Positions 2 to 47,190 of a stretch of 64,000 nucleotides of DNA are shown here, piece after piece. Within the stretch, counting starts at the first letter, position 1. The number at the start of each line of letters is the position of its first letter. Below the pieces are notes generated by a model that ran no database searches, was not told where the DNA came from, and was given only the letters and a program-made list of their open reading frames with translations. Made by a program: the position numbers and the translations under genes. Source of the stretch: Halomarina litorea (GTDB taxonomy: Archaea; Halobacteriota; Halobacteria; Halobacteriales; Haloarculaceae); NCBI RefSeq assembly GCF_024227715.1, contig NZ_CP100449.1, positions 62,001-126,000 of the forward strand. Reading direction: 5' to 3'.

Positions 2-673
2 AGCGACCGGTGGCTCCACGCCATCCTCGCGTTCTCGGCGGGCGTGCTCGCCTTCCTCGCCATCGACGCGGGGTTCGAGGCGTTCGAACTCGCCGAGCAG
101 GTGCCGGGGGCGTTCGAGGGGCCCATCCTCGTCGCTCTCGGCGTCCTCGGTGCATTCCTCGTCGTGCAGGCGGTCAGCGCGTGGCGGACGGGCCGGGCCG
201 CTGCCGGTGACAGTCGTGCCCAGAGCGGGCTGTGGGTCGCCTACCTCGTCGCACTCGGCATCGGCCTGCACAACCTCGCCGAGGGACTGGCCATCGGGAG
301 TTCGTTCGCGCTGGGGCGTGTCTCGCTTGGCGCGTTCCTCGTCATCGGGTTCATGCTCCACAACGTGACGGAGGGACCGGCCGTCGTCGCGCCCGTCACC
401 CGGGGCGAACGGCCGCACCTCGGCCACTTCGTGGCGCTCGGGATCATCGCGGGGGCTCCGGTCATCCTCGGCGGGTGGCTCGGGAGCCTCGCGTTCTCGC
501 CGACGCTCGGGGCGTTCTTCCTCGTCGTCGGCGTCGGGGCCATCCTGCAGGTCGTCTGGGAACTGCGCGGAATGATCAGTCGCAACGGGCGGGTCGGGTC
601 CGCACTGAACCTTGCCGCCCTCCTGTTGGGCCTCGTCGTGATGTACGTCACCGACCTCTTCGTCACACTCTAA
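2..673 (+). CDS. ZIP-family divalent metal transporter, C-terminal part (truncated by window start)
   Basis: The reading frame is open from the first bases of the window, so the N-terminus lies outside. About 223 residues are visible, almost all hydrophobic, forming five or six membrane helices. Two ZIP signatures are present: HNLAEG (bases 269-286) in the TM4-equivalent helix and HNVTEG (359-376) in the TM5-equivalent helix. In this family these His/Glu residues form the binuclear metal site that moves Zn, Fe or related cations into the cytoplasm. A halocyanin gene starts 26 bases after the stop, so the two may be co-transcribed and share a metal theme. The substrate cannot be told from sequence. 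Confidence 0.85.
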   Translation, partial: SDRWLHAILAFSAGVLAFLAIDAGFEAFELAEQVPGAFEGPILVALGVLGAFLVVQAVSAWRTGRAAAGDSRAQSGLWVAYLVALGIGLHNLAEGLAIGSSFALGRVSLGAFLVIGFMLHNVTEGPAVVAPVTRGERPHLGHFVALGIIAGAPVILGGWLGSLAFSPTLGAFFLVVGVGAILQVVWELRGMISRNGRVGSALNLAALLLGLVVMYVTDLFVTL

Positions 674-699: not shown

Positions 700-1110
700 A
701 TGAACAGACGACAGGTGCTTCGACTCGGCGGCGCAGGGCTCGTAGCGACTGTGACTGCGGGCTGTTCGTCGCTTGGTGGGTCGAACGAACCGCCGCGGGT
801 ATCGATGGCCGATGGGTTCAGCTACGAGCCGGAACGGGTCACGATTCGCCCAGGGACGACGGTCCGCTGGGTGAACGACAGTGACGTCGGGCACACAGTG
901 ACAGCGTACGAGGACGGCATTCCCGCGGATGCGGCGTACTTCGCCAGCGGTGGGTTCGAATCCGAGCGGGCCGCACGCGCCGACGTGAGTGGCGGACTCC
1001 TCGCCTCTGGGGAGGCGTACGAGCACACGTTCGAGGCTACCGAGACGTTCGAGTACTTCTGTATTCCCCACGAGGGGTCGGGGATGACCGGGGGCGTCGT
1101 CGTCAGGTAG
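700..1110 (+). CDS. Halocyanin-like blue copper lipoprotein
   Basis: This 136-residue protein starts with a Tat-type signal (MNRRQVLRLGGAG) and a lipobox ending in Cys22 (TAGCSS), so it should be exported folded and lipid-anchored outside the membrane. The remainder is a plastocyanin-like cupredoxin domain. The type-1 copper ligands are visible: His65 (VGHTV), Cys121 and His124 (FCIPH) and Met129 (SGMTGG). Halocyanins carry single electrons between membrane redox complexes. I chose the ATG at 700 because the Tat motif begins there; the frame stays open upstream but only as antisense-like sequence across the ZIP gene. Confidence 0.9.
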   Translation: MNRRQVLRLGGAGLVATVTAGCSSLGGSNEPPRVSMADGFSYEPERVTIRPGTTVRWVNDSDVGHTVTAYEDGIPADAAYFASGGFESERAARADVSGGLLASGEAYEHTFEATETFEYFCIPHEGSGMTGGVVVR

Positions 1111-4282: not shown

Positions 4283-4363
4283 GATTCGCCATAGCTTTCG
4301 ATAGCGAAGTAGATAAGTCGCCGAGTCCAACAAACTGGAGTTACCTGAATTGAGGCGCTAAGG

Positions 4364-4406
4364 CCCCTTCCTCAACGAGCGAGCGGAGCGAGCGAGTAGG
4401 GAGGGG
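4364..4406 (+). repeat. Candidate left-end hairpin of the IS1341-type element
   Basis: An inverted repeat CCCCTTCC ... GGGAGGGG encloses a GAGCGAGCGGAGCGAGCGAG core. Two more perfect small hairpins follow at about 4418-4465 (ACGAGAG/CTCTCGT and GAGACGC/GCGTCTC). It lies about 190 bases before the small ORF that precedes tnpB and mirrors the strong hairpin after tnpB (5858-5901), as expected for the subterminal structures of IS200/IS605-superfamily ends. The exact element boundary is not defined. Confidence 0.5.
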
Positions 4407-4558
4407 ATACAGCGTTCACGAGAGCTTCGCTCTCGTGCGCGAACGAGACGCAGAGCGTCTCGTCAACGCCGCACAGTTCTCAAACACGTTCGACGCTCGG
4501 CCCACAGGCCCACGCAATCGCAACAACTATACGCACAGATGCGCATAGTGTGTATGTA

Positions 4559-4678
4559 GTGAGGCGGAAGAACATCACCATCCGCGAAGACCAAGCCGAG
4601 TGGGTCGAGGAGAACCACCTCAACCTCTCGTCGTTCGTTCGCGGCCAACTTGACGAACTCATCGAAGAACGCTCGTGA
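4559..4678 (+). CDS. Small putative DNA-binding protein preceding tnpB
   Basis: This 39-residue ORF starts at a GTG (4559; a second in-frame GTG lies 9 bases upstream). The peptide includes KNITIREDQAEWVEENHLN and ends SFVRGQLDELIEERS, resembling the strand-helix-helix core of a ribbon-helix-helix protein. Its stop overlaps the GTG start of tnpB by four bases (GTGA), so the two are translationally coupled. I recall similar short ORFs upstream of haloarchaeal tnpB genes. A role in controlling tnpB is inference. Confidence 0.55.
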   Translation: MRRKNITIREDQAEWVEENHLNLSSFVRGQLDELIEERS

Positions 4679-5894
4679 ACTACAACTACAGGTATCGACT
4701 CCGACCGTCCGACGCTCACCGCGAACAGTTAGCGTGGACTGTCGATACCTGTAGACAGGTCTACAACCACTTCCTCCACCGCTTGAATCGGAACGATGAT
4801 ACATCGGCGTACTCCGAACAGAAACTCCTGCCGAGCCTCAAGAAGTGGTGGAACGACCTGAAACAAGTTCACTCAAAAGTTCTACAGAAGGTCGTACAAC
4901 GACTGTACGACAACCTCTCGACACTCCGTGGCCGAAAGCAAAACGGCCACCGCGTCGGGACACTCAAGTGGAAAGGACAGGGAGAGTACCGTTCGTTCAC
5001 CTACAGTCAGTCCGGCTTTGAACTCAAGAACACGAGTGGCCGAACGCGACTGTGGCTCTCGAAAATCGGTGAAATCCCGCTCACCTTCCACCGCGACCTC
5101 CCCGACGACGCCGAGATAAAGACCGTCACGGTCAAACGTGAACCCACCGGCAAGTGGTACGCTGTCCTCGGGGTTGAAACCCCGGACGACCCGCCGGAGA
5201 AACCCGAGAATCCCGAGAAGTGCGTCGGCATCGACGTGGGGATTCTCACGTACGCCCACGACACGGACGGAACCGCCGTCGAATCGCTCGACTTGTCAGA
5301 CGAACGCGAGCGGTTGGAACGCGCACAGCGCGACCTCACTCGGAAGGAACACGGGTCTGCGAATTGGGAGAAACAGCGGGAGGTTGTAGCTGAGCGCCAC
5401 GCCGAGTTGAAGAGCAAGCGCCGCGACTTCCTCCACAAGCTCTCGAACTACTACGCGAGAGAGTATGACTTTGTGGCCGTCGAGGACTTGGACGCGAAGG
5501 GATTGGTAGAGCTACCGGGTAACTCTCGGAACCGGTCGGGGGCGGCGTGGGGGACGTTCCTGCGGATGCTCGAATACAAGTGCGAGCGCGAGGGAACCCA
5601 CTTCGTCGCCGTGAATCCACCGGAACGACCAAAGAGTGTGCGTCCTGCGGCGTTTCGACGGAGAAGCCGCTGTGGGTCCGTGAGCACTCCTGCCCGGCGT
5701 GCGGATTCGAGGCGGATAGAGACGCGAACGCGGCATGGAATATCCTTTCTCGCGGCCTTGAAGATATAGGAGTGGGATACTCCGAATCAACGCCTGTGGA
5801 GACTGCGCTCCCTGTGGATATGTCCGTATCTGCAAAGCGCGTCGTTGAGACAGGAAGCCCCACCCTCAAGCGCGAGCCGTCAGGCGAGCGGTAG
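4675..5894 (+). pseudogene. tnpB: IS1341-type TnpB RNA-guided nuclease, frameshifted
   Basis: The N-terminal helix-turn-helix region (from 4675) and RuvC-like motifs are intact in the first frame: IDVGILTYAHD (first Asp) and VAVEDLDAKGL (Glu). At about 5616-5621 the frame is lost: after VNP the first frame runs into ERPKSVRPAAF, while the next frame continues with TTKECASCGVSTEKPLWV, the CPACG zinc-finger half and DRDANAAWNIL, which supplies the third catalytic Asp. The restored frame ends at 5894 and the first frame stops at 5769. One missing base explains the break. Without the zinc ribbon and last Asp the product should be inactive as a nuclease. Confidence 0.85.
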
Positions 5895-5901
5895 GGTGGG
5901 G
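5858..5901 (+). ncRNA. Terminal hairpin of the tnpB element, candidate omega/reRNA scaffold end
   Basis: A perfect 9-base inverted repeat, CCCCACCCT (5858-5866) and AGGGTGGGG (5893-5901), closes a GC-rich loop containing GCGCGAGCCGTCAGGCGAGCG. It overlaps the end of tnpB: the restored stop codon TAG (5892-5894) lies in its right arm. In TnpB systems the guide (omega/re) RNA is made from the 3' end of tnpB and this right-end structure, with the guide just downstream, here about from 5902. That this RNA is expressed is inference. Confidence 0.5.
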
Positions 5902-5926
5902 TAGTTCACTTCGCCCACTCGAACGT

Positions 5927-6289
5927 ATGACCGATACCCCCGAACGACCGACCTCCGACCAGCTGACCGCGGCCGACGTCCAGTGTTACTGCCCCGTTGG
6001 AGGGGTCATCGACCTCCTCGGACGAAAGTACGCGATACAGGTCGTCTGTGTGGTCGGCGCGATGCAACCAGCGAGATACACGGAGATCGAAGCCGCGTTT
6101 GGAGAGGTGAGCAGTTCGACGCTCTCGACGCGTCTGAGCGAACTCACAGAAGCCGGCCTCCTCGACCGAGAGCAACGCAATACGATTCCACCAGAAGTTC
6201 AGTATCGGCTAACGACCGACGGGGCGGAGCTCTGTGCGGTCTTGGAGCCATTGCTTCAGTGGGTCGAATCCCGCGACCCATCGGGATAA
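5927..6289 (+). CDS. HxlR-family winged-helix transcriptional regulator
   Basis: This 120-residue protein has the HxlR layout: a Cys-containing N-terminus (DVQCYCPVGGVIDLLGRKYA), then a winged helix with RYTEIEAAFGEVSSSTLSTR as recognition region and ELTEAGLLDREQ as wing entry. HxlR proteins bind DNA as dimers and often sense thiol-reactive or electrophilic compounds through an N-terminal cysteine; here Cys24 and Cys26 are in that position. It directly follows the TnpB element and precedes the divergent ORF/CuA cupredoxin region, so the cupredoxin gene is a plausible target, by proximity only. Confidence 0.85.
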   Translation: MTDTPERPTSDQLTAADVQCYCPVGGVIDLLGRKYAIQVVCVVGAMQPARYTEIEAAFGEVSSSTLSTRLSELTEAGLLDREQRNTIPPEVQYRLTTDGAELCAVLEPLLQWVESRDPSG

Positions 6290-6345: not shown

Positions 6346-6624
6346 CTAACGATACAGCGGTTCGTTTCGCCGCGAGTTGGAGTAACTCGGCTGGTAGACG
6401 CATGTCGATATCTGTAGTGATGCTGCACGGATAGTGCTCTGAGGAAAGAACGTCGAATCACGCTTCGTGAGGAGGTTGCCGACGGTGTAGGCGACGATTG
6501 CTGCACTCGCACCGACGAGGACTTCGTTGGCCCCACCCCACGTAGTGAGGGCGCGTCTCTTTGCCCGGATTTCCGTATACGCATCGAAGACATATGATTC
6601 GAGTCGTCTCACGGCGTCAGGCAC
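6346..6624 (-). CDS. Doubtful small ORF with one hydrophobic helix
   Basis: The 92-residue frame has an N-terminal part that looks protein-like (charged MPDAVRRLESYVFDAYTEI, then the hydrophobic helix VLVGASAAIVAYTVGNLL), while its C-terminal third looks random. It occupies the otherwise empty 304-base gap 6290-6593 and its 5' end overlaps the divergent CuA gene by about 30 bases. It may be a real small membrane protein or the N-terminal remnant of one. I recognise no family. Confidence 0.25.
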   Translation of the reverse strand: MPDAVRRLESYVFDAYTEIRAKRRALTTWGGANEVLVGASAAIVAYTVGNLLTKRDSTFFPQSTIRAASLQISTCVYQPSYSNSRRNEPLYR

Positions 6625-7343
6625 TGGGGATTACACTCGGAGCACTGCTCGGTGCGACGGCGTACCCCGGGATCCGACTCACGCAGGGAACCGTTACCGG
6701 ACACTCACAGACACAACAGTCCACGCAGTCGCTCTACATCGGTGCGTACCACTGGGGGTTCGTACTGCTAGACGACAGCGGTACGGAGCTCCAACAGGTC
6801 AGCGTCCGCACGGACACACGGCTTCGGCTGACCGCGTTTAGCGTCGAGGCGTCCGAGGCGGTCGCCGCACTTCCGGAGGCGGTTCGTGGCGGCCTCCCGA
6901 ATCACGAGACACTCGAAGAGCGGAACCTGAGTACCATCCCTGTCCCGTCCGGTGTGAACCTCGCATCGCTGTTGGAGCACGCCGAGCGGAACTATCCCGA
7001 CCACGGCGTCGCCATCGTCCCCGATGAGTGGGTCGGCGGGATGGGGTCCGGTTCGGGGTGGGGCCACCACGGCCCCGGATGGGGGCATCACGGTGGCGGA
7101 CAGTGGGATGGATACGGCCCAGGTCGCCGGACAGGCCCCGGGCCTCATGGTCCCGGCTGGCCCGGCCACCAGGGCGGAATGGTCGCACCGCCGCTCACAC
7201 TCTGGCACCACGCAACTACCCCGACGGTACTCGAGTTCGTCGTTACCGTCCCCGGGCCGTTCACCGTGGTCTGTCCGACCTACTGTGGGTACGGCCACTC
7301 GTACATGGTCGCTCCGAGCGCCCTCGTCGTCTCGAGTCCGTGA
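6594..7343 (+). CDS. Tat-exported CuA-type cupredoxin with His/Gly-rich insert
   Basis: This 249-residue protein starts with a Tat signal (VSRRQALGITLGALLG). The mature part has subunit II-like strands (YIGAYHWGFVLLDDSG; later VLEFVVTVPGPFTVVC) and ends in a CuA site: C227-PTY-C231-GYG-H235-SY-M238, the C-x3-C-x3-H-x2-M spacing of cytochrome oxidase subunit II and nitrous oxide reductase. No transmembrane hairpin other than the signal is present. Between the cupredoxin halves, residues about 149-197 form a Gly/His/Trp/Pro-rich insert with GWGHHGPGWGHHGGG. No oxidase subunit I gene is nearby, so a stand-alone copper or electron carrier is likely. The start at 6594 is set by the Tat motif. Confidence 0.75.
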   Translation: MIRVVSRRQALGITLGALLGATAYPGIRLTQGTVTGHSQTQQSTQSLYIGAYHWGFVLLDDSGTELQQVSVRTDTRLRLTAFSVEASEAVAALPEAVRGGLPNHETLEERNLSTIPVPSGVNLASLLEHAERNYPDHGVAIVPDEWVGGMGSGSGWGHHGPGWGHHGGGQWDGYGPGRRTGPGPHGPGWPGHQGGMVAPPLTLWHHATTPTVLEFVVTVPGPFTVVCPTYCGYGHSYMVAPSALVVSSP

Positions 7344-7694: not shown

Positions 7695-8063
7695 ATGAGC
7701 GCGAGTGACAAGCCCCGACGGGTCCACTTCCAGTCCCCGGAGTATCTCGTCGAGCGTCTCGACGCGATCGCGGAGCTCTTCGACAAAGATCGGACCGATG
7801 TCCTCGTCGAGGCGATCCGCGAGTACATCGAAGAGACTGCCGACAGCGAGACGTTCCAGGAGCTGGTGGCGACGAAATACTACGACGACCAACTCGAGTT
7901 CGAGACGGTCAAGCAGCTGGTCGGCGCCGAGACCGCCCAACGGCTTCGGCTCCTCAAAGCGGATCTCGAGGGTGAACCGTTTGATCTCGATGCGCCTGCT
8001 GACGTCAACATCTACGGCGACGACGCGACGACGGTGGATACCGCGGACGACGACGAGCGATGA
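7695..8063 (+). CDS. Ribbon-helix-helix antitoxin, partner of PIN toxin
   Basis: The 122-residue protein begins with an RHH strand (RRVHFQSPEYLVERLDAIAEL) followed by DRTDVLVEAIREYIEE, a typical MetJ/Arc fold, then an acidic C-terminal tail suited to wrapping a toxin. I chose the ATG at 7695, not the upstream 7599 start, because the RHH core begins directly after it and the operator lies just before it. Its stop overlaps the start of the PIN gene (ATGA), the usual coupling of antitoxin and toxin. Confidence 0.75.
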   Translation: MSASDKPRRVHFQSPEYLVERLDAIAELFDKDRTDVLVEAIREYIEETADSETFQELVATKYYDDQLEFETVKQLVGAETAQRLRLLKADLEGEPFDLDAPADVNIYGDDATTVDTADDDER

Positions 8064-8629
8064 GCAGGCCGCGGCTGCGGACAGTCGTCGCCGACACGAG
8101 TGCGCTGGTCAGTCTCGCTGTCCCACGAGCCGACGCAGCCTATGACACCGACACCGCGCCGGACCCGCTCCAGTATCTCCTCACCTCGTGTGACGTCTCC
8201 GTGCCGCCGGAAGTCGTGGCAGAGCTCCGTGACATGGCCCAGTACCAGGACATCCACGGCGCTGCAGCGTCCAACGTTCTCACTGCTCGCGACCACTACA
8301 CGGTTGACGACCCCTATGAGCGAGTCGACACGCCCGAGTCGCGACCGACGTTCGGCCTCGACGACGGTGAAACCGACGGCATCGTGCTCGCGAACTCCCT
8401 CGATGTCGACGGGTTTCTGACCGACGAGTTCGGCGGGACGAATTTCGCGCTCATCCATGCAGTCTTGCAGGGCCCGCGTATCGTCCCGACACCACGGTTG
8501 CTCTGTGATTACGCCCGCAACGACCACATGGCCCACGAAGAGGCACAGACGCTCATCGTAACCATTATCCCGCATCGGAGTTGGGAGAGCAGCCCCTACG
8601 TCGCTCAATTATTGGCTCTCTTGGAGTAG
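8060..8629 (+). CDS. PIN-domain toxin-like nuclease
   Basis: This 189-residue protein has the spaced acidic residues of PIN ribonucleases: VADTSALVSL at the N-terminus, VPPEVVAELRDM near residue 54, FGLDDGETDGIVLA in the middle and DGFLTDEFGGTNFAL towards the end. PIN toxins cleave tRNA, rRNA or mRNA in a Mg-dependent way. It overlaps the upstream RHH gene by four bases. It is longer than a typical VapC (about 130 residues) and belongs to the longer haloarchaeal PIN type. The RNA target is unknown. Confidence 0.75.
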   Translation: MSRPRLRTVVADTSALVSLAVPRADAAYDTDTAPDPLQYLLTSCDVSVPPEVVAELRDMAQYQDIHGAAASNVLTARDHYTVDDPYERVDTPESRPTFGLDDGETDGIVLANSLDVDGFLTDEFGGTNFALIHAVLQGPRIVPTPRLLCDYARNDHMAHEEAQTLIVTIIPHRSWESSPYVAQLLALLE

Positions 8630-34409: not shown

Positions 34410-36602
34410 GTGACGAGTACAGGACCAGCCACACTCTCGAGCTATACGATACAAATCGGCAGGCACGGTGGGCGGAGTGAATCGGGGGCGCTATCACTCG
34501 AACGGCGACTCTCCGATATGCCAGGCGTCCACGACGCTGAAGTCTCGTTTCGTGCAGGGACCGCACGCATCACGTACGACAGCAGCGTCACCTCGGAGGC
34601 CGACCTCAAACGAGTCATCCGCGACCATAGGGTCTCGCTCCGGGACGAGGCAGATGCCGGTGGACTGAGTGAGGAGGCCGACGAGACTACGACCTCGGAA
34701 CTGCGCACCGAGGCATTGTTCGTTGTCATCACCTTCGTAGGGATGATAATCGGTCTGAGCGTGGGCTGGTTCGGTGGCCCGGCCGCCCTAGGGTGGGTCG
34801 GGTACAGTGCAGCGTACGTCTTCGGCGGCTGGTATGGGCTCAAAGGGGGCGTCGAGACGCTTCGGCACCGTGCCGTCGACATCGACCTGCTGATGATCGT
34901 CGCCGCACTCGGTGCACTGTCGATCGGCGCACCGTTCGAGGGGGCGATGCTCCTCTTCCTGTTCTCCCTGTCGAATACCCTCCAGCACTACGCAATCGGG
35001 CGCTCACGCCGGGCGATCAAATCGCTGGTGAACATGCGACCAGACACCGCGGACGTCCTCCGTGGTGGTGAGGAGGTCACAGTACCGATCGACGATGTGG
35101 CCGTCGGCGACGTCTTCGTGGTCCGTCCTGGTGACCGCATCCCGCTCGACGGCACCGTCGAGTCGGGTGAGAGCACAGTCGACCAAGCGTCGCTCACCGG
35201 AGAGTCCGTCCCAGTGCCGAAAGAGCCACGCGACGAGGTGTTCGGTGGGACGATCAACGAAAGCGGGAGCCTCGAGGTCTCGGTGACCCGTCAAGCCCAC
35301 GAATCGGCTATCACCCGTCTTATCCATATGGTCGAGAGTGCCCAGAGCGAGAAAGCACCCACGCAGCGACTCATCGACCGTCTCGAACAGCCCTACGTAC
35401 TGGGCGTGTTCGGACTCACCGGCGCGGCGATAATAGTCCCATTACTCCTGGGTGGCGAGTTCACGAGCACGTTCTACCGTGCGATGACGCTGATGGTCGC
35501 CGCGTCACCATGTGCGGTCATCATCTCGACGCCGGCGGCAGTGCTCTCGGCGATCGCTTCGGGCGGACGACAGGGGGTGTTATTCAAGGGTGGCGAACAC
35601 GTCGAGACGGCGGCGACGGTCGACGCCGTCGCATTCGACAAGACGGGGACACTCACCGAGGGCAACACGCGGTTGACGGACGTGGTCGTGCGCGACGATA
35701 TCCCCGACGGGCAGCGACTCTCGGAGACAGAGTTACTCGTCCGGGCCGCGGCGGTCCAGGACCGTTCCGAACACCACCTCGCTCGAGCCATCGTCACGGA
35801 AGTCGAGAACCGTTCGCTCGACTTCCCCGAGGCGCGAGGGTTTCAGGCGACTGCCGGGAAAGGGGTGCGGGCGACCGTCGATGGCAGGACGGTCCACATC
35901 GGCAACCGGAGCTACTTCCAGACGGTATTGGCCGACACACCCGTCGAGGGGCAGGAAGTCGGCCTCGAGAAACTCGAAGCGCTCGAAAGTGAGGGAAAGA
36001 CGGCTGTAATCGTCGCACTCGAGTCCGACAATGCGACCCGCGTCGTCGGGTGGCTCGCGTTCACAGACACCCTCCGTCCGGGGGCCGCCGACATGATTTC
36101 CGACCTCCGGGCGCTCGGCATCGAACACATCGTCATGCTGACGGGGGACAACGAGCGCGTCGCACGTCGCATCGCCGACAAAGTGGATATCGACGAAGTA
36201 CGGGCAGAGCTACTCCCCGAGGAGAAGGTGGCCAGCTTAGAGGCGCTGGTCGAACGCCACGATACCGTGGCGATGGTCGGCGATGGCGTCAACGACGCCC
36301 CTGCGCTCGCGACCGCCTCGCTCGGTATCGCGATGGGTGGTGCCGGTACCGACGTGGCACTCGAGACGGCTGACGTCGTCCTAATGGGGGATGACCTGAG
36401 CAAGATTCCGTACGTCCTCGAGCTGGGGCGCCAGACGCGCCGGACCCTCGTGACCAACCTCGCAATCGCCTTTGGAGCGATTGCCCTCATGGTTGGCACC
36501 ATCCTCTTCCAGGGGCTCGCGCTCCCTCTCGCCGTGGTCGGGCACGAGGGGTCGACCGTGCTGGTCTCCTTGAACGGACTCCGACTGCTCGGCTATCGAT
36601 GA
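34410..36602 (+). CDS. P1B-type heavy-metal ATPase (SPC/HEGST type)
   Basis: The 730-residue protein (GTG start) has a ferredoxin-like N-terminal domain (about residues 10-75) without the usual CxxC, then P-type motifs: TGESVPVPKE, SPCAVI in the sixth-helix position (about 366), DKTGTLTEG (about 408, phosphorylated Asp), a SEHHLARAIV His pair for nucleotide and GDGVNDAP (about 623). The last helix has HEGSTVLVSLNGLRLL. The SPC plus HEGST pair is characteristic of the P1B-4 (Co, Zn, Fe or Cd) group rather than copper pumps with CPC. Expected role: efflux of divalent transition metal. Confidence 0.87.
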   Translation: MTSTGPATLSSYTIQIGRHGGRSESGALSLERRLSDMPGVHDAEVSFRAGTARITYDSSVTSEADLKRVIRDHRVSLRDEADAGGLSEEADETTTSELRTEALFVVITFVGMIIGLSVGWFGGPAALGWVGYSAAYVFGGWYGLKGGVETLRHRAVDIDLLMIVAALGALSIGAPFEGAMLLFLFSLSNTLQHYAIGRSRRAIKSLVNMRPDTADVLRGGEEVTVPIDDVAVGDVFVVRPGDRIPLDGTVESGESTVDQASLTGESVPVPKEPRDEVFGGTINESGSLEVSVTRQAHESAITRLIHMVESAQSEKAPTQRLIDRLEQPYVLGVFGLTGAAIIVPLLLGGEFTSTFYRAMTLMVAASPCAVIISTPAAVLSAIASGGRQGVLFKGGEHVETAATVDAVAFDKTGTLTEGNTRLTDVVVRDDIPDGQRLSETELLVRAAAVQDRSEHHLARAIVTEVENRSLDFPEARGFQATAGKGVRATVDGRTVHIGNRSYFQTVLADTPVEGQEVGLEKLEALESEGKTAVIVALESDNATRVVGWLAFTDTLRPGAADMISDLRALGIEHIVMLTGDNERVARRIADKVDIDEVRAELLPEEKVASLEALVERHDTVAMVGDGVNDAPALATASLGIAMGGAGTDVALETADVVLMGDDLSKIPYVLELGRQTRRTLVTNLAIAFGAIALMVGTILFQGLALPLAVVGHEGSTVLVSLNGLRLLGYR

Positions 36603-36734: not shown

Positions 36735-37022
36735 TTACAGACCCTGTCGGTCCGGGCTGAGCATGATGGACCGCAAGATCAGTGCCATCCCGGACGAGAC
36801 GAGTACTGCTTGGACGAGCGCGGCCGAGAACAGTGACGTCCCCAGCACACCGTAGATGAGGCCTTCACAGATCGCACCGACGCCGATGAAGACGAACCCG
36901 ACCGAAACGTAGACCATGGGGAAGAGTTCACTCCGTCTGTAGGCGTAGAACGCGAGATACGCGACGCTAAGGCTGAGCAAGAGCGTCACGAGTTTGATGA
37001 AGGCGGTCAACGGACCGATCAT
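36735..37022 (-). CDS. Three-helix membrane protein (DUF7521-like)
   Basis: This 95-residue protein is hydrophobic throughout, with helices AFIKLVTLLLSLSVAYLAFY, MVYVSVGFVFIGVGAICEGL and SAALVQAVLVSSGMALILRS. It begins inside the stop of the HTH gene (ATGA overlap). I recall haloarchaeal HTH/three-helix membrane pairs of this kind (DUF7521). It may anchor or sense for the regulator, which is inference. Confidence 0.7.
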   Translation of the reverse strand: MIGPLTAFIKLVTLLLSLSVAYLAFYAYRRSELFPMVYVSVGFVFIGVGAICEGLIYGVLGTSLFSAALVQAVLVSSGMALILRSIMLSPDRQGL

Positions 37023-37378
37023 GTGTTGTCACGCAGGTTCCGCCAGAGTGCGGTGAAGTTGTCGGCGAGTTCGTCGCGCGTTTCGACGGACAGGTCGAGG
37101 CTCCCCTCGGAAATCGAGACGTGAAACGCCTCTATCGTCGTCTCGAACAGCCGTTTGTGTTCACCCCCCGAACCGATCGTCGAGTGGACCCTGACGAGAC
37201 CGTGTTCTCGCAACGTCGAGAGACGCCGATACACCGTCGTCAGCGATGCATCACAGATCTGACAGAGGGCTTTCGCCGTCCGTGTCTGCTCGTCGGCCGC
37301 GAGTAGGATCGCTCGCGAGTAGTCGTCTGCGAACACGTCGAAAAGCGCCACAGACGAGTCGACCTCATCACCACCCAT
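37019..37378 (-). CDS. Winged-helix regulator coupled to a membrane protein
   Basis: I use the ATG at 37378 (MGGDEVDSSVALFDV), giving 119 residues; a longer frame to 37564 crosses the divergent promoter. The HTH is DVFADDYSRAILLAADEQTR, AKALCQICDASLTTVYRRLS, REHGLVRVHSTIGSGGEHKR, with two cysteines (C-x2-C) at the start of the recognition region. The next gene overlaps by four bases. Divergent to it is the Cys-motif membrane protein gene, a likely target. Confidence 0.75.
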   Translation of the reverse strand: MGGDEVDSSVALFDVFADDYSRAILLAADEQTRTAKALCQICDASLTTVYRRLSTLREHGLVRVHSTIGSGGEHKRLFETTIEAFHVSISEGSLDLSVETRDELADNFTALWRNLRDNT

Positions 37379-40926: not shown

Positions 40927-42051
40927 TCAGTTCGCGGCGCAGTTGTTCGGGCCGAGTTCGAGTTCCTCGACGTCGTCGCCGGGTTGCTCCTCGCCCCAGT
41001 TGATCTGCTTGATCTCGTTGTAGTTCGCGGGTTCGTCGGCGAGGCTCTCGACGATGGTCTCGACGAACGCCTCCTCGTCGCCGTCCTCGACGTAGCTCAG
41101 CAGTTCGTTCGTCGACTCCGCTTTCAGCTCGCCGAGTTCGGTCGCGAGCGGTCGCACCTCCTCGTCGCTGAAGTGGCCGGGGAGGACGACGGTCCCGTCG
41201 TCGAGGTCGGTGAGTTCATCGAGGCTCTCGAACAGCCGGCTCGCGGCCGTCCGGACGGCGTCCTCGGAACTGTCCTCGAGGTCGGGGCGGCCGACGCTCC
41301 GGAGGAACAGGGTGTCCCCGGAGAGGAGCGCGTCGCCGAACTCGAAGGAGACGCTCCCGGGCGTGTGGCCGGGCGTGTGCCGGACCGTGAGTTCGCGCTC
41401 GCCGACCTCGATGGCGTCGCCGTCGGCGAGTTCGGTCACGCGGTCGAGAGCGGCGACGTCCTCGCCGTGGAGGTAGTAGGGAACGTCGAGTTCGCCTGCG
41501 AGGCGGCGCGCCCCGGAGACGTGGTCGGCGTGCGCGTGGGTGTCTGCGACGCCGACGATTTCGACGTCCCGTTCGTCGGCCGCGCCCAGATAGTGGTCGA
41601 GGTACTGGGAGGGGTCGACGACGACCGCCTCGCCGCTGTCGTGGACGAGATACGAGACGCACCCGGTCCCGGGACGGACGATCTGGACGACGCCGTCGAG
41701 GTCGGTGAGTTCGTACTCGCGGTGGACCCGTCCCCACGAGTTCATCCCGTCGGGGATGGACTTCGCGTCGAAGCCCTGTTCGCGGAGGAACTGGGCGGCG
41801 CGCGCCGACGTGATTCCCCCGACACAGACGACGGCGATCTCCTCGTCCTCGGGGAGTTCGTCGAGGTGGTCTTCCAGCCCCGAGAAGTCGTGGGCGAGCA
41901 GTTCGTCGTAGATGGGGACGTTCTCGCTCTCCGGGATCTGCCACTCCTCGTAGTCGTCCTCGTTGCGCACGTCGAGGACGAACAGGTCCTCGCTGTTCTC
42001 GTCCACGATACGGCGCGCGACTTCGGATGCTTCGATGTCTGTATTGCGCAT
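40927..42051 (-). CDS. Rhodanese-metallo-beta-lactamase fusion, persulfide dioxygenase/transferase type
   Basis: The ATG at 42051 gives 374 residues. An N-terminal rhodanese domain (VLDVRNEDDYEEWQI; Cys76 in VVCVGGITSAR) is followed by an MBL domain with HAHADH (172-177), RHTPGHTPGS and ALLSGDTLF. Such fusions bind a non-heme iron and oxidise or pass on glutathione-like persulfides. The last residues are LELGPNNCAAN; the second fusion in this island ends almost identically, so this Cys tail is conserved. The operator GTATTG-N11-CAATAC overlaps its start codon. Confidence 0.82.
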   Translation of the reverse strand: MRNTDIEASEVARRIVDENSEDLFVLDVRNEDDYEEWQIPESENVPIYDELLAHDFSGLEDHLDELPEDEEIAVVCVGGITSARAAQFLREQGFDAKSIPDGMNSWGRVHREYELTDLDGVVQIVRPGTGCVSYLVHDSGEAVVVDPSQYLDHYLGAADERDVEIVGVADTHAHADHVSGARRLAGELDVPYYLHGEDVAALDRVTELADGDAIEVGERELTVRHTPGHTPGSVSFEFGDALLSGDTLFLRSVGRPDLEDSSEDAVRTAASRLFESLDELTDLDDGTVVLPGHFSDEEVRPLATELGELKAESTNELLSYVEDGDEEAFVETIVESLADEPANYNEIKQINWGEEQPGDDVEELELGPNNCAAN

Positions 42052-42063
42052 TACATACAATAC
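42041..42063. promoter_or_regulatory. Sulfur-island operator 1, GTATTG-N11-CAATAC
   Basis: GTATTG (42041-42046), eleven spacer bases, CAATAC (42058-42063). The perfect inverted arms surround the ATG of the first rhodanese-MBL gene (42049-42051, minus strand), so a bound repressor would block initiation. Confidence 0.65.
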
Positions 42064-42151
42064 AAACTGCCAGAGGGTGATAAATGCGTTGATGAGACGG
42101 TCGACGACTCAGCAGGACGGTCGCGTATATCAGTGCTCGTCTACGTTCGAC

Positions 42152-42556
42152 TCAGCTCTCGGCAGAAGCGGGCGAGTGGAGGTCCTCACCGTACTTGTCC
42201 TCGAACTCGCCGATGAGCTGTCCCATCTTTGCGTACCAGTCGTTGAGCGTCCGCTGCATCTCGCGTGCGACCTCGTCGGCGTCACGAAGCCGGTAGACGT
42301 GGTAGTAGCCGCCGTGGTCGTAGTTCACCTGCTCTTTCTGGACGAAGCCAGCCTGGAGGAGCCGCTGGATACCACGGTAGGCGGTCGTCCGCTCACGGTC
42401 GACCTGTTCGGCGATCTCGTCGACGGTGAGCGGGTCCTGTCGCTCGCTGAGCAGCTGGAATATCTCCCTGTCGAGAGCTTTGAGATCGTGGAAACACTCC
42501 AGCAGGCCCTCGCACTCCATGTCCTTCCGGAGCATCTCGTTCATCGAGTCGGCCAT
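42152..42556 (-). CDS. Winged-helix regulator with C-x5-C pair, candidate sulfur sensor
   Basis: The ATG at 42556 gives 134 residues. The N-terminus has Cys15 and Cys21 (MECEGLLECFHDLKAL), then a TrmB/MarR-like winged helix (REIFQLLSERQDPLTVDEIA, QVDRERTTAYRGIQRLLQAG) and a wing GYYHVYRLRDADE, ending in a helix that could dimerise. It lies between the first rhodanese-MBL gene and the TauE gene, inside the sulfur island. An operator half-site is just upstream. I infer a persulfide- or thiol-responsive repressor of the island; no other local regulator fits as well. Confidence 0.72.
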   Translation of the reverse strand: MADSMNEMLRKDMECEGLLECFHDLKALDREIFQLLSERQDPLTVDEIAEQVDRERTTAYRGIQRLLQAGFVQKEQVNYDHGGYYHVYRLRDADEVAREMQRTLNDWYAKMGQLIGEFEDKYGEDLHSPASAES

Positions 42557-42590
42557 GAGTGGTGGAACGTAGGGAGCGAGTGGCCAAAAG

Positions 42591-42613
42591 ACTTTGTAAG
42601 CTCGATACAATAC
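42591..42613. promoter_or_regulatory. Sulfur-island operator 2 (one strong arm)
   Basis: CAATAC (42608-42613, within ATACAATACTGG) with a weak partner ACTTTG eleven bases away (42591-42596). It lies 35-57 bases before the regulator start at 42556, as expected for autoregulation. Confidence 0.45.
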
Positions 42614-42622
42614 TGGCCCGAG

Positions 42623-43618
42623 CTACGACGTGGTGAGCCGACACCACGTCCCGCTCTGGTCGTCCCGGAGCTGGCAGATCGCGGCGAGGACGACGGCGCT
42701 ACTCACCAGCAGCGCCGCCCCGAAGATGAGCACCGTACTCAGCGTGTCGAGGAGTTCGATACCGTAGACCGTTCCGAGCCTGTTGGCGGCGACGGCGGCG
42801 CTCCCCGCGAGGAGCATGGCGGCGAAGTACCCCTTGATGTCGGCCTCGTCGACGAGGTTCGTCGCTCCCGCCCCGATCCGTGCCCCGAGCGCACTCCCGA
42901 GGAGCAGGAACCCGACGACGGGGAGCGCGACCGCCCCGGACTGCGCGTACGTGAACGCGCCGAACGCGCCGGAGATAGTGATCTGGAGGATGTCCGTCCC
43001 GACGGCGATCGCGGCCGGGACACCGAGCCCGTACATCATCGCCGGCATCAGGAGGAAGCCGCCACCGACGCCCAGGAACCCCGAGAGGACGCCGATGACG
43101 AGTCCGATGGCGAAGACGATACTCCCCGAGACGCGGACGCCCCCGCGCAGCGTCACCATCGGTGGGATGTGGATGGCCTGGACGCGGTCGGCGAGGCCGC
43201 CGCCGTCCGACGTGCCGCCGTCCGAGCGGGCGTCGTGGAGTGTGAACAGGCCGACGGCACCGAGCAGGCCGACGTACGCGACGTTGATGACAAGGTCCGC
43301 CATCCCGCTCGCGTCGAGGAGGAAGACGACGCTCTTCCCGCCCTCGATGCCGAGGGTCATGGCCGCGGTCATGATGGTCGCGAGTTTGTAGTCGACCTGC
43401 CCGTGCTCGCGGTGACGGAGCGCGCCGATGACGCTCGTCCCGAAGACGAACGCGAGGCCACTCCCGACGGCGACCGTCGAGGGGTAGCCCATGACGAGCA
43501 GCGCCGGCGTCACGAGGAACGACCCTCCCATCCCGAAGAACCCGAACAGCGTCCCGATGAGCAGTCCGAATCCGACGAACGTCGCGACCAGCAGCAGACT
43601 CATCCCGAGGAGTTCCAC
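42623..43618 (-). CDS. TauE/SafE-family sulfite or organosulfur exporter
   Basis: The GTG at 43618 gives 331 residues with about eight helices. The duplicated glycine-rich segments are typical: IGTLFGFFGMGGSFLVTPAL in the first half and VIGVLSGFLGVGGGFLLMPA in the second. Family members move sulfite, sulfoacetate or other sulfur anions out of the cell. It starts two bases after the stop of the 49-residue membrane protein and shares its operator. Export of sulfite produced by the persulfide dioxygenase-like enzymes is the simplest reading. Confidence 0.82.
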   Translation of the reverse strand: MELLGMSLLLVATFVGFGLLIGTLFGFFGMGGSFLVTPALLVMGYPSTVAVGSGLAFVFGTSVIGALRHREHGQVDYKLATIMTAAMTLGIEGGKSVVFLLDASGMADLVINVAYVGLLGAVGLFTLHDARSDGGTSDGGGLADRVQAIHIPPMVTLRGGVRVSGSIVFAIGLVIGVLSGFLGVGGGFLLMPAMMYGLGVPAAIAVGTDILQITISGAFGAFTYAQSGAVALPVVGFLLLGSALGARIGAGATNLVDEADIKGYFAAMLLAGSAAVAANRLGTVYGIELLDTLSTVLIFGAALLVSSAVVLAAICQLRDDQSGTWCRLTTS

Positions 43619-43620
43619 CC

Positions 43621-43770
43621 TCAGTCACCTCCGACCGCGTCGAGGACCGTGCCCCTGACGAGACCGCCGAGGACGCCGTACCCGACGTACAGCACTAACG
43701 CCTCCCCGAGGACGAGACCGACTGTCGTCACCGCACCTGTCGACCCGCTCAAGACTCCGATTACGGACAT
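43621..43770 (-). CDS. 49-residue single-helix membrane protein (DUF7512-like)
   Basis: The ATG at 43770 gives MSVIGVLSGSTGAVTTVGLV with the helix LVLGEALVLYVGYGVLGGLV, ending TVLDAVGGD. It is too short for most gene finders. I recall haloarchaeal one-helix proteins of this kind (DUF7512) beside TauE and YeeE genes. Two bases separate its stop from the TauE start, so it is probably a small subunit or stabiliser of the exporter. The operator with split arms lies 18-50 bases upstream. Confidence 0.7.
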   Translation of the reverse strand: MSVIGVLSGSTGAVTTVGLVLGEALVLYVGYGVLGGLVRGTVLDAVGGD

Positions 43771-43787
43771 ATTACGTGTTTCCTGTC

Positions 43788-43820
43788 GTATTGTTTGGAA
43801 CGTCGTTTACTGCACAATAC
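43788..43820. promoter_or_regulatory. Sulfur-island operator 3, arms one helical turn further apart
   Basis: GTATTG (43788-43793) and CAATAC (43815-43820) are inverted arms with a 21-base spacer, ten bases (one helical turn) more than the N11 sites. They precede the DUF7512-like/TauE unit starting at 43770. Confidence 0.5.
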
Positions 43821-43863
43821 AGCTCGCGAACACCGACCAGCGATGGGGTGAGAACCACGGTCG

Positions 43864-44343
43864 TCAGTCGGTGGGGACGGTGTCCGAGGTGTCGGCGTCG
43901 TCGGCGCGGTACGACCGGACGTACCCCTGCGCGTACGCACCGAGGAACATCCCGAGGACCGCCCACAGGATGGGGAGATTCCCGATGCCGACGCTCGCGT
44001 ACGCCGCACCGGGACAGATTCCCGAGATGCCCCACCCGACACCGAAGATGGCACCGCCAGCGAGGACGTTGCGGTTCATCGACTTCAGCCGACGGGTGTA
44101 CGCCCGCCCGGTGAGCGGTGCGCGGTCGAGGAAGCGCGTGGCGACGAAGAACACCACCCCAGAGACGACCGCGGCCCCGCCCATCACGAACAGCAGGCCG
44201 AGGTCATCGAACTGGAGGAAGTCCAGGACGATCTCGGGTTTCGCCATCCCGCTGAGCGCGAGGCCGAACCCGAACACCATCCCCCCGAGGAGTATCAGGA
44301 GGGTGACCCCGAGGCTCCGGTCCTCGTTGGTCGCGGCGCTCAC
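43864..44343 (-). CDS. YeeE/YedE-type sulfur transporter, second half subunit
   Basis: The GTG at 44343 (VSAATNEDRS) gives 159 residues with four helices, including VFGFGLALSGMAKPEIVLDF and VGWGISGICPGAAYASVGIG, whose Cys matches the conserved site in the channel of the second half of YeeE/YedE (Sulf_transp). The gene overlaps the first-half gene by four bases. In single-chain relatives both halves are fused and import thiosulfate; split pairs are known as PmpA/PmpB-like proteins. The C-terminus is acidic. Confidence 0.8.
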   Translation of the reverse strand: MSAATNEDRSLGVTLLILLGGMVFGFGLALSGMAKPEIVLDFLQFDDLGLLFVMGGAAVVSGVVFFVATRFLDRAPLTGRAYTRRLKSMNRNVLAGGAIFGVGWGISGICPGAAYASVGIGNLPILWAVLGMFLGAYAQGYVRSYRADDADTSDTVPTD

Positions 44344-44837
44344 GGCGACACCCCCAGGGCGGCGACGATCTGAGCCGTCCCGATGGCGAAGGCCATGAAC
44401 GTCGCGACGTTCACCAGCGAGGTCTGCGAGAGCGACCCGACCCCACAGACGCCGTGGCCGGAGGTACAGCCCTTCCCGAGGCGCGTCCCGACGCCGACGA
44501 GGAACCCGCCACCGAGCAGTCGCCACGGCTGGACCGCGGTCGTCCACCCGAACTCGCCGAACGCGAGGGCGTACACCGCCGCTCCGCCGACGATACCGAG
44601 CGTGAACACGACGCGCCAGTCGCGCGAGGCCAGGTACTTCGTCCGGTTGAACCGGGGGACGTCCGAGACGTACGACAGCGTCGACTCGAGGAACGTGCTG
44701 GCGCCCGCGATGATGCCTGTCCCGAGGTAGATCGTCGCGACGCCCAGGCCGATGAGCAGGCCACCGGCGGCGTACTGAGCGATACCGCGCGGGAACAGTT
44801 CCGCGAACGCGACCAGGGGGAGTGTGGTTGTGATCAT
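44340..44837 (-). CDS. YeeE/YedE-type sulfur transporter, first half subunit
   Basis: The 165-residue protein has five helices and the signature GVGTRLGKGCTSGHGVCGVG, with the Cys pair that relays thiosulfate or sulfane sulfur in YeeE. It starts 22 bases after the stop of the second rhodanese-MBL gene and overlaps its partner subunit, so imported sulfur would meet the rhodanese directly. The pair together forms one transporter. No separate operator is seen, consistent with read-through from 46.1 kb. Confidence 0.82.
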   Translation of the reverse strand: MITTTLPLVAFAELFPRGIAQYAAGGLLIGLGVATIYLGTGIIAGASTFLESTLSYVSDVPRFNRTKYLASRDWRVVFTLGIVGGAAVYALAFGEFGWTTAVQPWRLLGGGFLVGVGTRLGKGCTSGHGVCGVGSLSQTSLVNVATFMAFAIGTAQIVAALGVSP

Positions 44838-44859
44838 TGTCTCGTGTGGGGTCGCGTTC

Positions 44860-46050
44860 TCAGTCGCTCGTCATCGCGTCGCTGCTGGCGGCGCAGTTGT
44901 TCGGGCCGAGTTCGAGTTCGAACGCCTCCTCGTCGTCGGTCGCCCGCTGGCCGAGGTTCGTTCCGATGATCTCCTCGTAGTTCGCCGGGCGTGGCGGCAT
45001 GTCCGAGCGGATGAACTCGACAAACGCCTCGCGGTCCATCGACAGGGCGTCCATCTCACGTTTCAGGTCGCCGAGCCTGGTGACGTAGGTTCCGTCGTCG
45101 CGCGGTGTCGCGCAGTCGCTGAAGTGGGCTGGCGCGACGAGGACGTCGTCGCCGAGCGGCAGAATCGTCGACTGGAGCGTCTCGTGGAGTTCGGCGGCGG
45201 CCTCGCGTGCTTCCTCGTCGTCGGCCCCTTCGAGGTCCGGCCGGGCGACGCTCTCGGTGAACAGGCCGTCTCCACTGAGGAGGACGGCGTCGTCGACGAG
45301 GTACGACGTCATGCCAGAGGTGTGGCCGGGCGTGTGAAGGACGTCGACGTCGATGTCGCCGACGGTGAGCGTGTCGCCGTCACCGACCGTCTCGTAGTCG
45401 ACGTCGTACTCGACGCCGCGATCGACCGCCGGTTCAGGGAGGACGACCTGCGCGCCAGTCTGGGCGGCGAGTTCGCGGACGCCGCTGACGTGGTCGGCGT
45501 GGACGTGCGTATCGATGGCGTACGTGATGTCGACACCCATCGCCCGTGCGTCCTGTACGTAGTCGTCGACGAACGCCCGGAGCGGGTCGACGACCGCGGC
45601 CTCCCCGTCGCTGACGACCATGTAGGCCATGCAGCCGCTGGAGGGGCGCTGGTACTGTGCGACGGTCGCGTCCGTGTCGGCGTCGAGTTCGCGGTACTCG
45701 TAGATACCCGCCCAGCCGTTCATCCCGCGTTCGAGGTTGACGGCGTCGACTCCTTCGTCGAGGAGCTGGCCAGCGACGTACTCGCTGGAACCACCCTTCG
45801 CGCAGACGACGACCGTCGGGTCGCCTGCCGGGATACGTTCGAGGTGGTTCTCGCTCACACCGTCGAGCAGTTCGAAGTACGGGACGTTGGCGACCTCGGC
45901 ACTCTCGCCGTCGATGCGCCACTCCTCGTACTCGCTCTCTGCACGCACGTCGAGTATCGTCACCGGCCGACCGTCGTCGATGCGCTGTTTGAGCGCTTCG
46001 GGGGCGATCGACTCGACGTCCGCATCCGGTTCGGGAAATCCGTCGTCCAT
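44860..46050 (-). CDS. Second rhodanese-metallo-beta-lactamase fusion
   Basis: The 396-residue protein begins MDDGFPEPDADVESIAPEAL. The rhodanese domain has ILDVRAESEYEEWRI and Cys83 (VVVCAKGGSSEYVA); the MBL domain has THVHADHVSG (181-190), LHTPGHTSGM and VLLSGDGLF. The tail FELELGPNNCAASSD repeats the conserved Cys motif of the first fusion. Sequence identity between the two is moderate, so this is an old duplication with separate roles. It heads an operon with the two YeeE/YedE subunits. Confidence 0.82.
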   Translation of the reverse strand: MDDGFPEPDADVESIAPEALKQRIDDGRPVTILDVRAESEYEEWRIDGESAEVANVPYFELLDGVSENHLERIPAGDPTVVVCAKGGSSEYVAGQLLDEGVDAVNLERGMNGWAGIYEYRELDADTDATVAQYQRPSSGCMAYMVVSDGEAAVVDPLRAFVDDYVQDARAMGVDITYAIDTHVHADHVSGVRELAAQTGAQVVLPEPAVDRGVEYDVDYETVGDGDTLTVGDIDVDVLHTPGHTSGMTSYLVDDAVLLSGDGLFTESVARPDLEGADDEEAREAAAELHETLQSTILPLGDDVLVAPAHFSDCATPRDDGTYVTRLGDLKREMDALSMDREAFVEFIRSDMPPRPANYEEIIGTNLGQRATDDEEAFELELGPNNCAASSDAMTSD

Positions 46051-46094
46051 CTGTACCCGTTCGTACCGCCCCGCGACTCAAAAGGGTTTCTATG

Positions 46095-46117
46095 CTATTG
46101 CACAGTTCACACAATCA
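46095..46117. promoter_or_regulatory. Sulfur-island operator 4 (imperfect)
   Basis: CTATTG (46095-46100), eleven bases, CAATCA (46112-46117): the same geometry as operator 1 with one mismatch in each arm core. It lies 45-67 bases before the second rhodanese-MBL start at 46050. Confidence 0.5.
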
Positions 46118-46239
46118 TCCTAGGCCATTCTGAGACTGTAAGCGGCCGAAGCGTTGCGAGAGAGCTGCTGAAGCATCACTGCGGGACAGAGAAGTTCGAG
46201 CATTGCCCAATAATCAACACACTTTTCAATGACGGGGCA

Positions 46240-46262
46240 GTATTGTCTGCTAAGCCCAATAC
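46240..46262. promoter_or_regulatory. Sulfur-island operator 5, GTATTG-N11-CAATAC
   Basis: Perfect arms GTATTG (46240-46245) and CAATAC (46257-46262) with an 11-base spacer, ending 18 bases before the TusA ATG at 46281. Together with operator 4 it occupies the divergent promoter region between the two operons. Confidence 0.65.
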
Positions 46263-46280
46263 GGAATGGGCCGAGCCACA

Positions 46281-46526
46281 ATGAGTTCGGAATACACAGT
46301 CACAGAGACGCTCGACGTGAAAGGTGAATCGTGTCCGATGCCGGTCGTGAAGACGAAAGGCGCAATCGACGGCCTGAGTCGGGGTGACGTACTGCAGGTG
46401 CTCGCTACCGACTCCGGTAGTGTGAGCGACATCGCGGGGTGGGCGGAGACGACGAACGGCGTCGAACTTCTCGACCAGGGAGAGGACGGCGACGTGTTCG
46501 AACACTACGTACGCAAGACGGAGTAA
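46281..46526 (+). CDS. tusA: TusA-family sulfur carrier protein
   Basis: The 81-residue protein (MSSEYTVTETLDVKGESCPM) has the TusA motif C-P-M-P with the persulfide-carrying Cys18, followed by VVKTKGAIDGLSRGDVLQVL. TusA-type proteins pass sulfane sulfur between rhodaneses, DsrE-like proteins and biosynthetic or oxidative enzymes. It leads an operon with DsrE-like and DUF302 genes and starts just after operator 5. Confidence 0.9.
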   Translation: MSSEYTVTETLDVKGESCPMPVVKTKGAIDGLSRGDVLQVLATDSGSVSDIAGWAETTNGVELLDQGEDGDVFEHYVRKTE

Positions 46527-46528
46527 CG

Positions 46529-47137
46529 ATGAGCATGGACACACCCGACGGTTCGGAGACGGAGACGCCGGTCGACTCGAGTGAGGACCCCGAAGACCTG
46601 ACGACGGCCGAACTCGCCGCCGAGGTCGAAACACTCCGCGAGGAGATGACCGACCTCAGAGCGGAGGTGAGCGACGACCAGCAGTCGATGGTCATCGTCG
46701 CGACGAAGGGGAGCCTCGACATGGCGTACCCGCCGCTCATCCTCGCGTCGACGGCGGCCGCGTTCGGCTGGGACGTCACCGTGTTCCACACCTTCTGGGG
46801 ACTCGACATCCTCCACGAGGAGAAGTCGAAGGAGCTCAAGCTCTCGGCGGTCGGCAACCCGAGCATGCCGATGCCGAACGCGCTGGCAGCGCTGCCGGGA
46901 ATGGACTCGGTGGCAACGCGCATGATGAACCGGAAGATCGCCGACAACAACACCGCGACCATCGAGGAACTCGTCGACGTGTCGCTCGACCAGGGGGTCG
47001 ACCTCCAGGCCTGCCAGATGACCATCGAATTGATGGACTACGACGAGGCCGACTTCTACGACGGGGTCACGACCGGCGTCGGCGCGGCCACGGCGCTCCA
47101 GCGGATGGCGGATGCCGACATCCAGTTGCTGGTCTGA
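46529..47137 (+). CDS. DsrE/DsrF-like (DsrE2) sulfur-transfer protein
   Basis: The 202-residue protein has an acidic N-terminal coiled segment (AELAAEVETLREEMTDLRAE) and a DsrE2-type domain: MVIVATKGSLDMAYPPLILA, WDVTVFHTFWGLDILHEEKS and, late, VDLQACQMTIELMDYDEADF with the candidate persulfide Cys. DsrE2 proteins work with TusA and rhodanese in sulfane-sulfur relay. The start lies two bases after the tusA stop, a strong operon sign. Confidence 0.85.
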   Translation: MSMDTPDGSETETPVDSSEDPEDLTTAELAAEVETLREEMTDLRAEVSDDQQSMVIVATKGSLDMAYPPLILASTAAAFGWDVTVFHTFWGLDILHEEKSKELKLSAVGNPSMPMPNALAALPGMDSVATRMMNRKIADNNTATIEELVDVSLDQGVDLQACQMTIELMDYDEADFYDGVTTGVGAATALQRMADADIQLLV

Positions 47138-47190
47138 GCGTCACTGCTCGCAGAATTAGGATCACATCGAACGAACCACACAATCCCACA

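Follow-up and report, generated by a model that had tools for sequence, protein, structure and literature searches.

CuA is known from oxidases and nitrous oxide reductase, where it serves in electron transfer, and in the literature that we searched the only exception to this was PmoD. The existence of PmoD demonstrates that CuA can occur outside respiratory enzymes (PMC6189053). In bacterial copper tolerance, the cupredoxin CopI carries an internal His/Met-rich segment on which copper resistance depends and which is believed to bind Cu(I) and to pass it to the cupredoxin centre (PMC13308877). The octarepeat unit of the prion protein also binds copper (PMC2663819, PMC6721516). The novelty here, judging by sequence, lies in a family distinct from the oxidases that has CuA-type ligands and bears exchangeable putative metal-binding segments.

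The window, that is, the whole analysed stretch of 64,000 nucleotides, comes from a replicon of 374,934 bases, probably a plasmid, in a haloarchaeal genome of 3.88 Mb. The gene of the protein considered here, P0001, is a single open frame with the ATG at 6594 and the stop codon at 7341-7343. Its features are as follows (SHORT, LONG and HD are the three architectures of the family described below).

6594..7343, + strand: gene of the predicted CuA-type cupredoxin P0001 (249 aa, exported, LONG type by architecture)
6594..6671, + strand: twin-arginine signal, residues 1-26, MIRVVSRRQALGITLGALLGATAYPG, without a lipobox Cys (from the sequence)
6735..6761, + strand: first conserved strand LYIGAYHWG, residues 48-56, with the invariant H53-W54-G55
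6855..6998, + strand: residues 88-135, an insertion of about 48 aa peculiar to this family, which separates the first strands from the DH strand
7002..7004, + strand: H137 of the DH(G/S)xAI strand, the proposed N-terminal CuA histidine (from conservation and profile alignment)
7023..7199, + strand: residues 144-202, the Gly/Pro/His/Trp loop, which contains three H-G-x-G-(x)-W units
7203..7211, + strand: W204-H205-H206 (LWHH), present in 9 of 9 LONG members and in no SHORT or HD member
7272..7307, + strand: CuA loop C227-x3-C231-x3-H235-x2-M238 (from the sequence and the family alignment)

Along the chain, the signal is followed by LYIGAYHWG, the core with the stretch of about 48 aa, the segment YPDHGVAIVP that contains H137, the loop, LWHH, CPTYCGYGHSYM and a final strand. 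The earlier note had claimed an exact C-x3-C-x3-H-x2-M spacing and a Tat signal instead of a membrane hairpin, and both claims hold. CPTYCGYGHSYM fits the motif exactly at C227, C231, H235 and M238, the two cysteines, four residues apart, being the only ones in the protein; the signal consists of SRRQALG and a subsequent hydrophobic stretch, and a membrane hairpin is absent from the P0001 sequence. A lipobox Cys after the RR motif is present in 33 of the 36 family members, P0001 being among those without it.

Searches of Pfam and curated NCBIfam yielded no family match for P0001. With the NCBIfam CoxB model (TIGR02866) it scored 15.2 bits (E 0.011) against a cut-off of 147.7, and there was no match to the Copper-bind domain PF00127, which the halocyanin of the same window matches at 5.7e-18. 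The best matches of the family profile to structures were the oxidase CuA domains 2cua and 1ehk (E about 0.006-0.01); the single P0001 sequence searched against PDB gave 2lln (E 0.27). AlphaFold, run without a usable alignment, produced models with pLDDT of 31.6 for P0001 alone and 34.5 for P0001 paired with a crenarchaeal CuA, and these were discarded. The weak similarity to CoxB, along with the secondary replicon and the insertion sequence nearby, could be taken to mean that P0001 is a degenerate or unused fragment of oxidase subunit II. This explanation is largely excluded and in our view highly improbable, given that P0001 has its own Tat signal and an intact open frame, that the family forms clades of its own, and that 36 members retain invariant ligands, with a core of constant length (90 aa) in both the SHORT and the LONG type.

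The family is unannotated, haloarchaeal and patchily distributed, and is often found on plasmids. Of the whole genomes searched, 17 of 146 in the same taxonomic family and 31 of 391 in the class contained a match, the true share of the family being somewhat lower, as a few of these matches are ordinary oxidase subunits. There were 17 plasmid records with a match, and wherever the record was annotated, the product was named 'hypothetical protein'. We collected 36 members (SHORT, n = 21; LONG, n = 9, including P0001; HD, n = 6), leaving out profile matches that covered only the last 30-50 residues, which were taken as ordinary CuA domains. A scan of genome contigs with P0001 alone had a crenarchaeal oxidase subunit, with COX1 beside its gene, as the sole match, and a profile scan of viral contigs with the family alignment gave none. 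Two further loci (L136 and L137, in genomes G169 and G123) matched the family model only over its N-terminal 50 positions; their frames are about 100 aa long, and neither HWG nor the CuA motif was found in the forward frames.

SHORT proteins (about 196 aa) have a Met/His loop, e.g., HMGGGMMMHP; LONG proteins (about 250-320 aa) have a Gly/Pro-rich loop with GHHG, followed by LWHH; and in HD proteins a variable number of His/Asp repeats is located before the DH strand. Three differing sequences of metal-binding type adjoin one common core. Exactly 90 residues separate the first strand from the DH motif in each of the 30 SHORT and LONG members, and the length of their insertion of about 48 aa, which is absent from oxidase CuA domains, is likewise constant. 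The loop after the DH motif varies from 4-6 residues in HD and 15-20 in SHORT to 52-101 in LONG (59 in P0001). In the tree, the SHORT and HD types each form a clade. P0001, despite its LONG loop, branches beside SHORT (97/87); LONG is thus an architecture but not a clade, with P0001 as an intermediate. Two HD-type orthologues from two genomes (L076 and L077) are distinguished chiefly by how many HDDDG repeats they have, a number that therefore changes fast. In a LONG-type copy on the Haladaptatus halobius plasmid NZ_CP085337.1 (L097:7843-8585), the N-terminal signal part is in a different frame from the rest, hence the annotated protein starts inside the domain.

The HWG of the first strand, one DH histidine (NH in one member) and the C, C and H of the CuA loop are invariant in 36 of 36 members. 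The strand LYIGAYHWG of P0001 aligns with the aromatic strand of CuA (AYRWGW in one haloarchaeal CoxB). The Met of the CuA loop is kept in 33 of the 36 members, including all SHORT and LONG ones, and is replaced by Gln in three HD members. The latter (L078, L079 and L080), with C-x3-C-x3-H-x2-Q and hence an axial Gln for Met, have a winged-helix regulator and a small membrane protein encoded nearby.

The presence of the N-terminal CuA His, which the earlier note had proposed to check, was addressed in part: there is an invariant candidate, H137, but single pairwise alignments of P0001 are ambiguous. Apart from the histidines of YHWG and of the CuA loop, the DH histidine is the only invariant one, in the context YP[DN]H in 30 of 30 SHORT and LONG members and LDH in 6 of 6 HD members. 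It precedes the first Cys by 35-37 residues in HD, as in true CuA, and by 90 residues in P0001. The HD profile aligns with haloarchaeal CoxB from the DH histidine to the C-terminus, placing DH on the CuA His (hhalign 97%). If the insertion of about 48 aa and the loop are excised from the SHORT and LONG sequences, the remainder matches CoxB end to end, in the same register and across 90 columns (98%), and the best-scoring excision ends exactly at the DH motif. A blind pair with the crenarchaeal oxidase subunit also puts the DH histidine on the CuA His. Single pairwise MAFFT alignments of P0001 with CoxB mostly put the CuA His on other, varying histidines, and this placement is ambiguous for P0001, SHORT and LONG. 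Thus, H137 is the best candidate for the N-terminal ligand, the assignment being only probable, since the single pairs choose other histidines and the AlphaFold models are unusable. The rival histidines lack such conservation: that of MMMH is Arg in two SHORT members (L090 and L071), and those of LWHH are confined to LONG.

The ambiguity of the N-terminal His in direct alignment and the Gln in place of Met in some members would also fit a mononuclear protein for copper or another soft metal, in which the two Cys would form a Cu(I) chaperone, a storage site or a disulfide switch and there would be no CuA centre; the thioredoxin-family genes found near 6 of 22 SHORT genes are compatible with such thiol redox control. 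We consider this alternative rather unlikely, because the exact C-x3-C-x3-H-x2-M and the flanking G and aromatic residue are kept in nearly all members and the HD-type profile matches the region of the CuA His.

The independence from an oxidase operon, claimed earlier, was borne out by gene neighbourhoods. When the COX1 and CoxB proteins of the host were compared by tblastn with the window and with 44 neighbourhoods of family members, neither had a match in the window or in any neighbourhood, and the positive controls were found. This rules out membership in an oxidase operon, and the finding that by the earlier note would have refuted its reading, homologues all situated in oxidase operons, was not obtained. 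The main chromosome of the host has two genuine CoxB genes, one of them beside subunit I.

In 18 of 22 loci the SHORT gene comes directly after a gene for a small SHOCT membrane protein, usually within 9 bp of it, and at least two copper-type gene families are found nearby in 15 of 22 loci (the families counted were CopA, DUF302, TRASH, HMA, MCO, the Met/His-rich secreted protein and halocyanin). Besides the thioredoxin genes, the 22 SHORT loci contain DUF302 (n = 12), the Met/His-rich secreted protein (n = 11), halocyanin (n = 10), TRASH (n = 8) and CopA (n = 6). Annotated examples are on plasmids of Haloarcula litorea and Haladaptatus sp. YSMS36, a P-type ATPase standing beside the gene in one of them. 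For the LONG genes, at least two copper families were found nearby in 0 of 8 loci, and one gene is near CopA. On the host main chromosome there is a truncated SHORT-type paralogue with its N-terminal part missing (L012, G000:C1:1922000-1938000, approximately 7929-8121); this remnant adjoins genes for DUF302, SHOCT, a multicopper oxidase and a CDF transporter.

The following features precede the P0001 gene in the window.

44..673, + strand: ZIP-like transporter gene, 3' part only, the gene starting upstream of the window (profile match)
700..1110, + strand: halocyanin (plastocyanin/azurin family) in the upstream metal island (profile match)
4341..5909, + strand: TnpB-type insertion sequence between the acr3-like transporter and HxlR
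5927..6289, + strand: HxlR-type regulator directly upstream of the P0001 gene, with a gap of 304 bp

The order of genes before P0001 is halocyanin, membrane protein, acr3-like SBF transporter, TnpB insertion sequence and HxlR regulator, and just upstream of the window there are a DtxR-like regulator, a multicopper oxidase and the start of the ZIP-like gene (ZIP tested with a profile, the others assigned by reading the sequence). As for the metal genes that the earlier note had listed for the window, the halocyanin and the ZIP-like transporter were found, but a further His-rich protein was not: none of the other called window proteins exceeds 5.2% His. The membrane protein (1303-2496, + strand, 397 aa, with a CTCGCCGP motif), situated between the halocyanin and the acr3-like transporter, has no Pfam or NCBIfam family. 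A homologue of the HxlR regulator (58% identical) is encoded on a Haladaptatus plasmid, where it, too, adjoins an SBF transporter and is about 6 kb away from a SHORT gene; this weakly links the window locus to copper operons. Elsewhere in the window, a DUF7521 protein and a helix-turn-helix regulator (36735-37378, - strand) form a pair like that accompanying HD-type genes, adjoining a Zn/Cd-type P1B ATPase with an SPC motif (34410-36602), and two rhodanese-metallo-beta-lactamase fusions, a DsrE-like protein and a DUF302 protein make up a sulfur/metal cluster (40927-47577).

The multicopper oxidase and halocyanin of this island, the complete set of CuA ligands, with Met, that every SHORT and LONG member has, and the conserved aromatic YHWG strand in place of the aromatic strand of CuA could also be expected of an electron-transfer protein. 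P0001 would then be a soluble CuA domain shuttling electrons from halocyanin-like donors to the multicopper oxidase or to a terminal oxidase encoded elsewhere, with the loop as an element of docking or solubility. We find this doubtful, as none of the 44 neighbourhoods has an oxidase gene, the SHORT operons are full of copper-handling rather than respiratory genes, three HD members have lost the Met, and electron transfer does not require the segment to vary.

The loop at residues 144-202, running from DEWVGG to APPLT, comprises 59 aa, among them 22 Gly, 8 Pro, 6 His and 5 Trp. It is about 43 aa longer than the SHORT loop and about 53 aa longer than the HD loop, so the earlier description of an insert of nearly 50 residues is fair; the insert as a whole lies in one loop. 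Since the third-position GC stays high within it (0.71) and relatives share it, the loop is coding sequence. A frame artefact is ruled out: the homologue search found nine LONG members, P0001 included, and in 9 of 9 the Gly/Pro/His insert is at the identical position, each time with a GHHG core. The three H-G-x-G-(x)-W units were matched or exceeded in 9 of 100,000 shuffles of the same residues, a result that is suggestive only, as the motif was picked after inspecting the loop.

Copper capture or buffering outside the cell thus appears to be the likeliest function, as the family is an unnamed non-oxidase one and close relatives are in copper-handling operons; that P0001 is a CuA-type cupredoxin recruited for this role and not serving an oxidase has, in our estimate, about an even chance. 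P0001 would be exported by Tat, and its flexible His/Trp/Gly loop would catch copper on the outer side of the membrane and pass it to the Cys2His2Met centre (H137, C227, C231, H235 and M238). The latter may hold one or two copper ions and thus buffer copper, or it may hand copper on to partners, such as the multicopper oxidase or halocyanin. The cupredoxin fold, the metal binding at both sites, the direction of transfer and a job common to P0001 and its SHORT relatives are what we infer. The copper-handling reading is favoured by the ligand set and its invariance, the conservation of the loop, the lack of oxidase genes, the SHORT copper operons and the window island with a multicopper oxidase, metalloregulator, ZIP transporter and halocyanin. 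Against it stand the location of the LONG type, including P0001, mostly away from copper genes (0 of 8), the ambiguous His in the P0001 pairs, the Gln for Met in three HD members, the missing Pfam/NCBIfam match and the low pLDDT of the models. The interpretation in the earlier note, with its ligand set, oxidase independence, Tat export and inserted His-rich segment, is thus partly supported. A bolder version, which we put forward tentatively, is that the family would make up a new CuA class, stand-alone cupredoxins with a binuclear centre, exported by Tat and serving copper homeostasis instead of respiration, where an interchangeable segment (Met/His, His/Gly/Trp or His/Asp) would feed copper into the centre. 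If true, it would be the second exception, unrelated to the first and in archaea, showing that CuA chemistry is used for copper handling; the family would offer a small, soluble, salt-stable protein for testing this, and proteins annotated only as 'hypothetical protein' would gain a testable role.

With the CuA domain of cytochrome c oxidase subunit II and ba3 oxidase (PF00116, TIGR02866), P0001 shares the C-x3-C-x3-H-x2-M loop and the aromatic strand before the loop; the candidate N-terminal His on the preceding strand would be a further likeness. It differs in having no membrane hairpin, in Tat export, in the absence of oxidase genes nearby, in the 48-aa insertion before the His strand and the loop of metal-binding type after it, and in scoring below every family cut-off. 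CinA of Pseudomonas putida, reportedly a methionine-rich, azurin-like, copper-inducible cupredoxin, resembles P0001, by description, as a cupredoxin of metal-rich character, but is azurin-like and not CuA. The loop of P0001, with its three units, is similar to the prion octarepeat in the short His/Gly/Trp units (PMC2663819, PMC6721516); the two are not homologous, and the likeness is due to convergence or chance, other LONG members mostly being without Trp.

CopI (PMC13308877) is also a single exported cupredoxin with an internal segment of His/Met-rich type and a copper-tolerance context, but its site is a mononuclear green His-Cys-His-Met one with one Cys, whereas the P0001 family has two invariant Cys in CuA spacing. 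We propose a division of labour between loop and centre as in CopI, with a CuA-type centre replacing the type-1.5 site; P0001 is best read as an analogue of CopI and not a homologue, the two being compared by description with no claim of sequence kinship. PmoD of methane oxidisers (PMC6189053) offers a precedent for CuA beyond the oxidases and nitrous oxide reductase, and one tied to copper use. There, CuA is formed across a homodimer by a Cx7MxHxnC motif, which P0001 lacks, whereas in P0001 a single chain can supply all five side-chain ligands.
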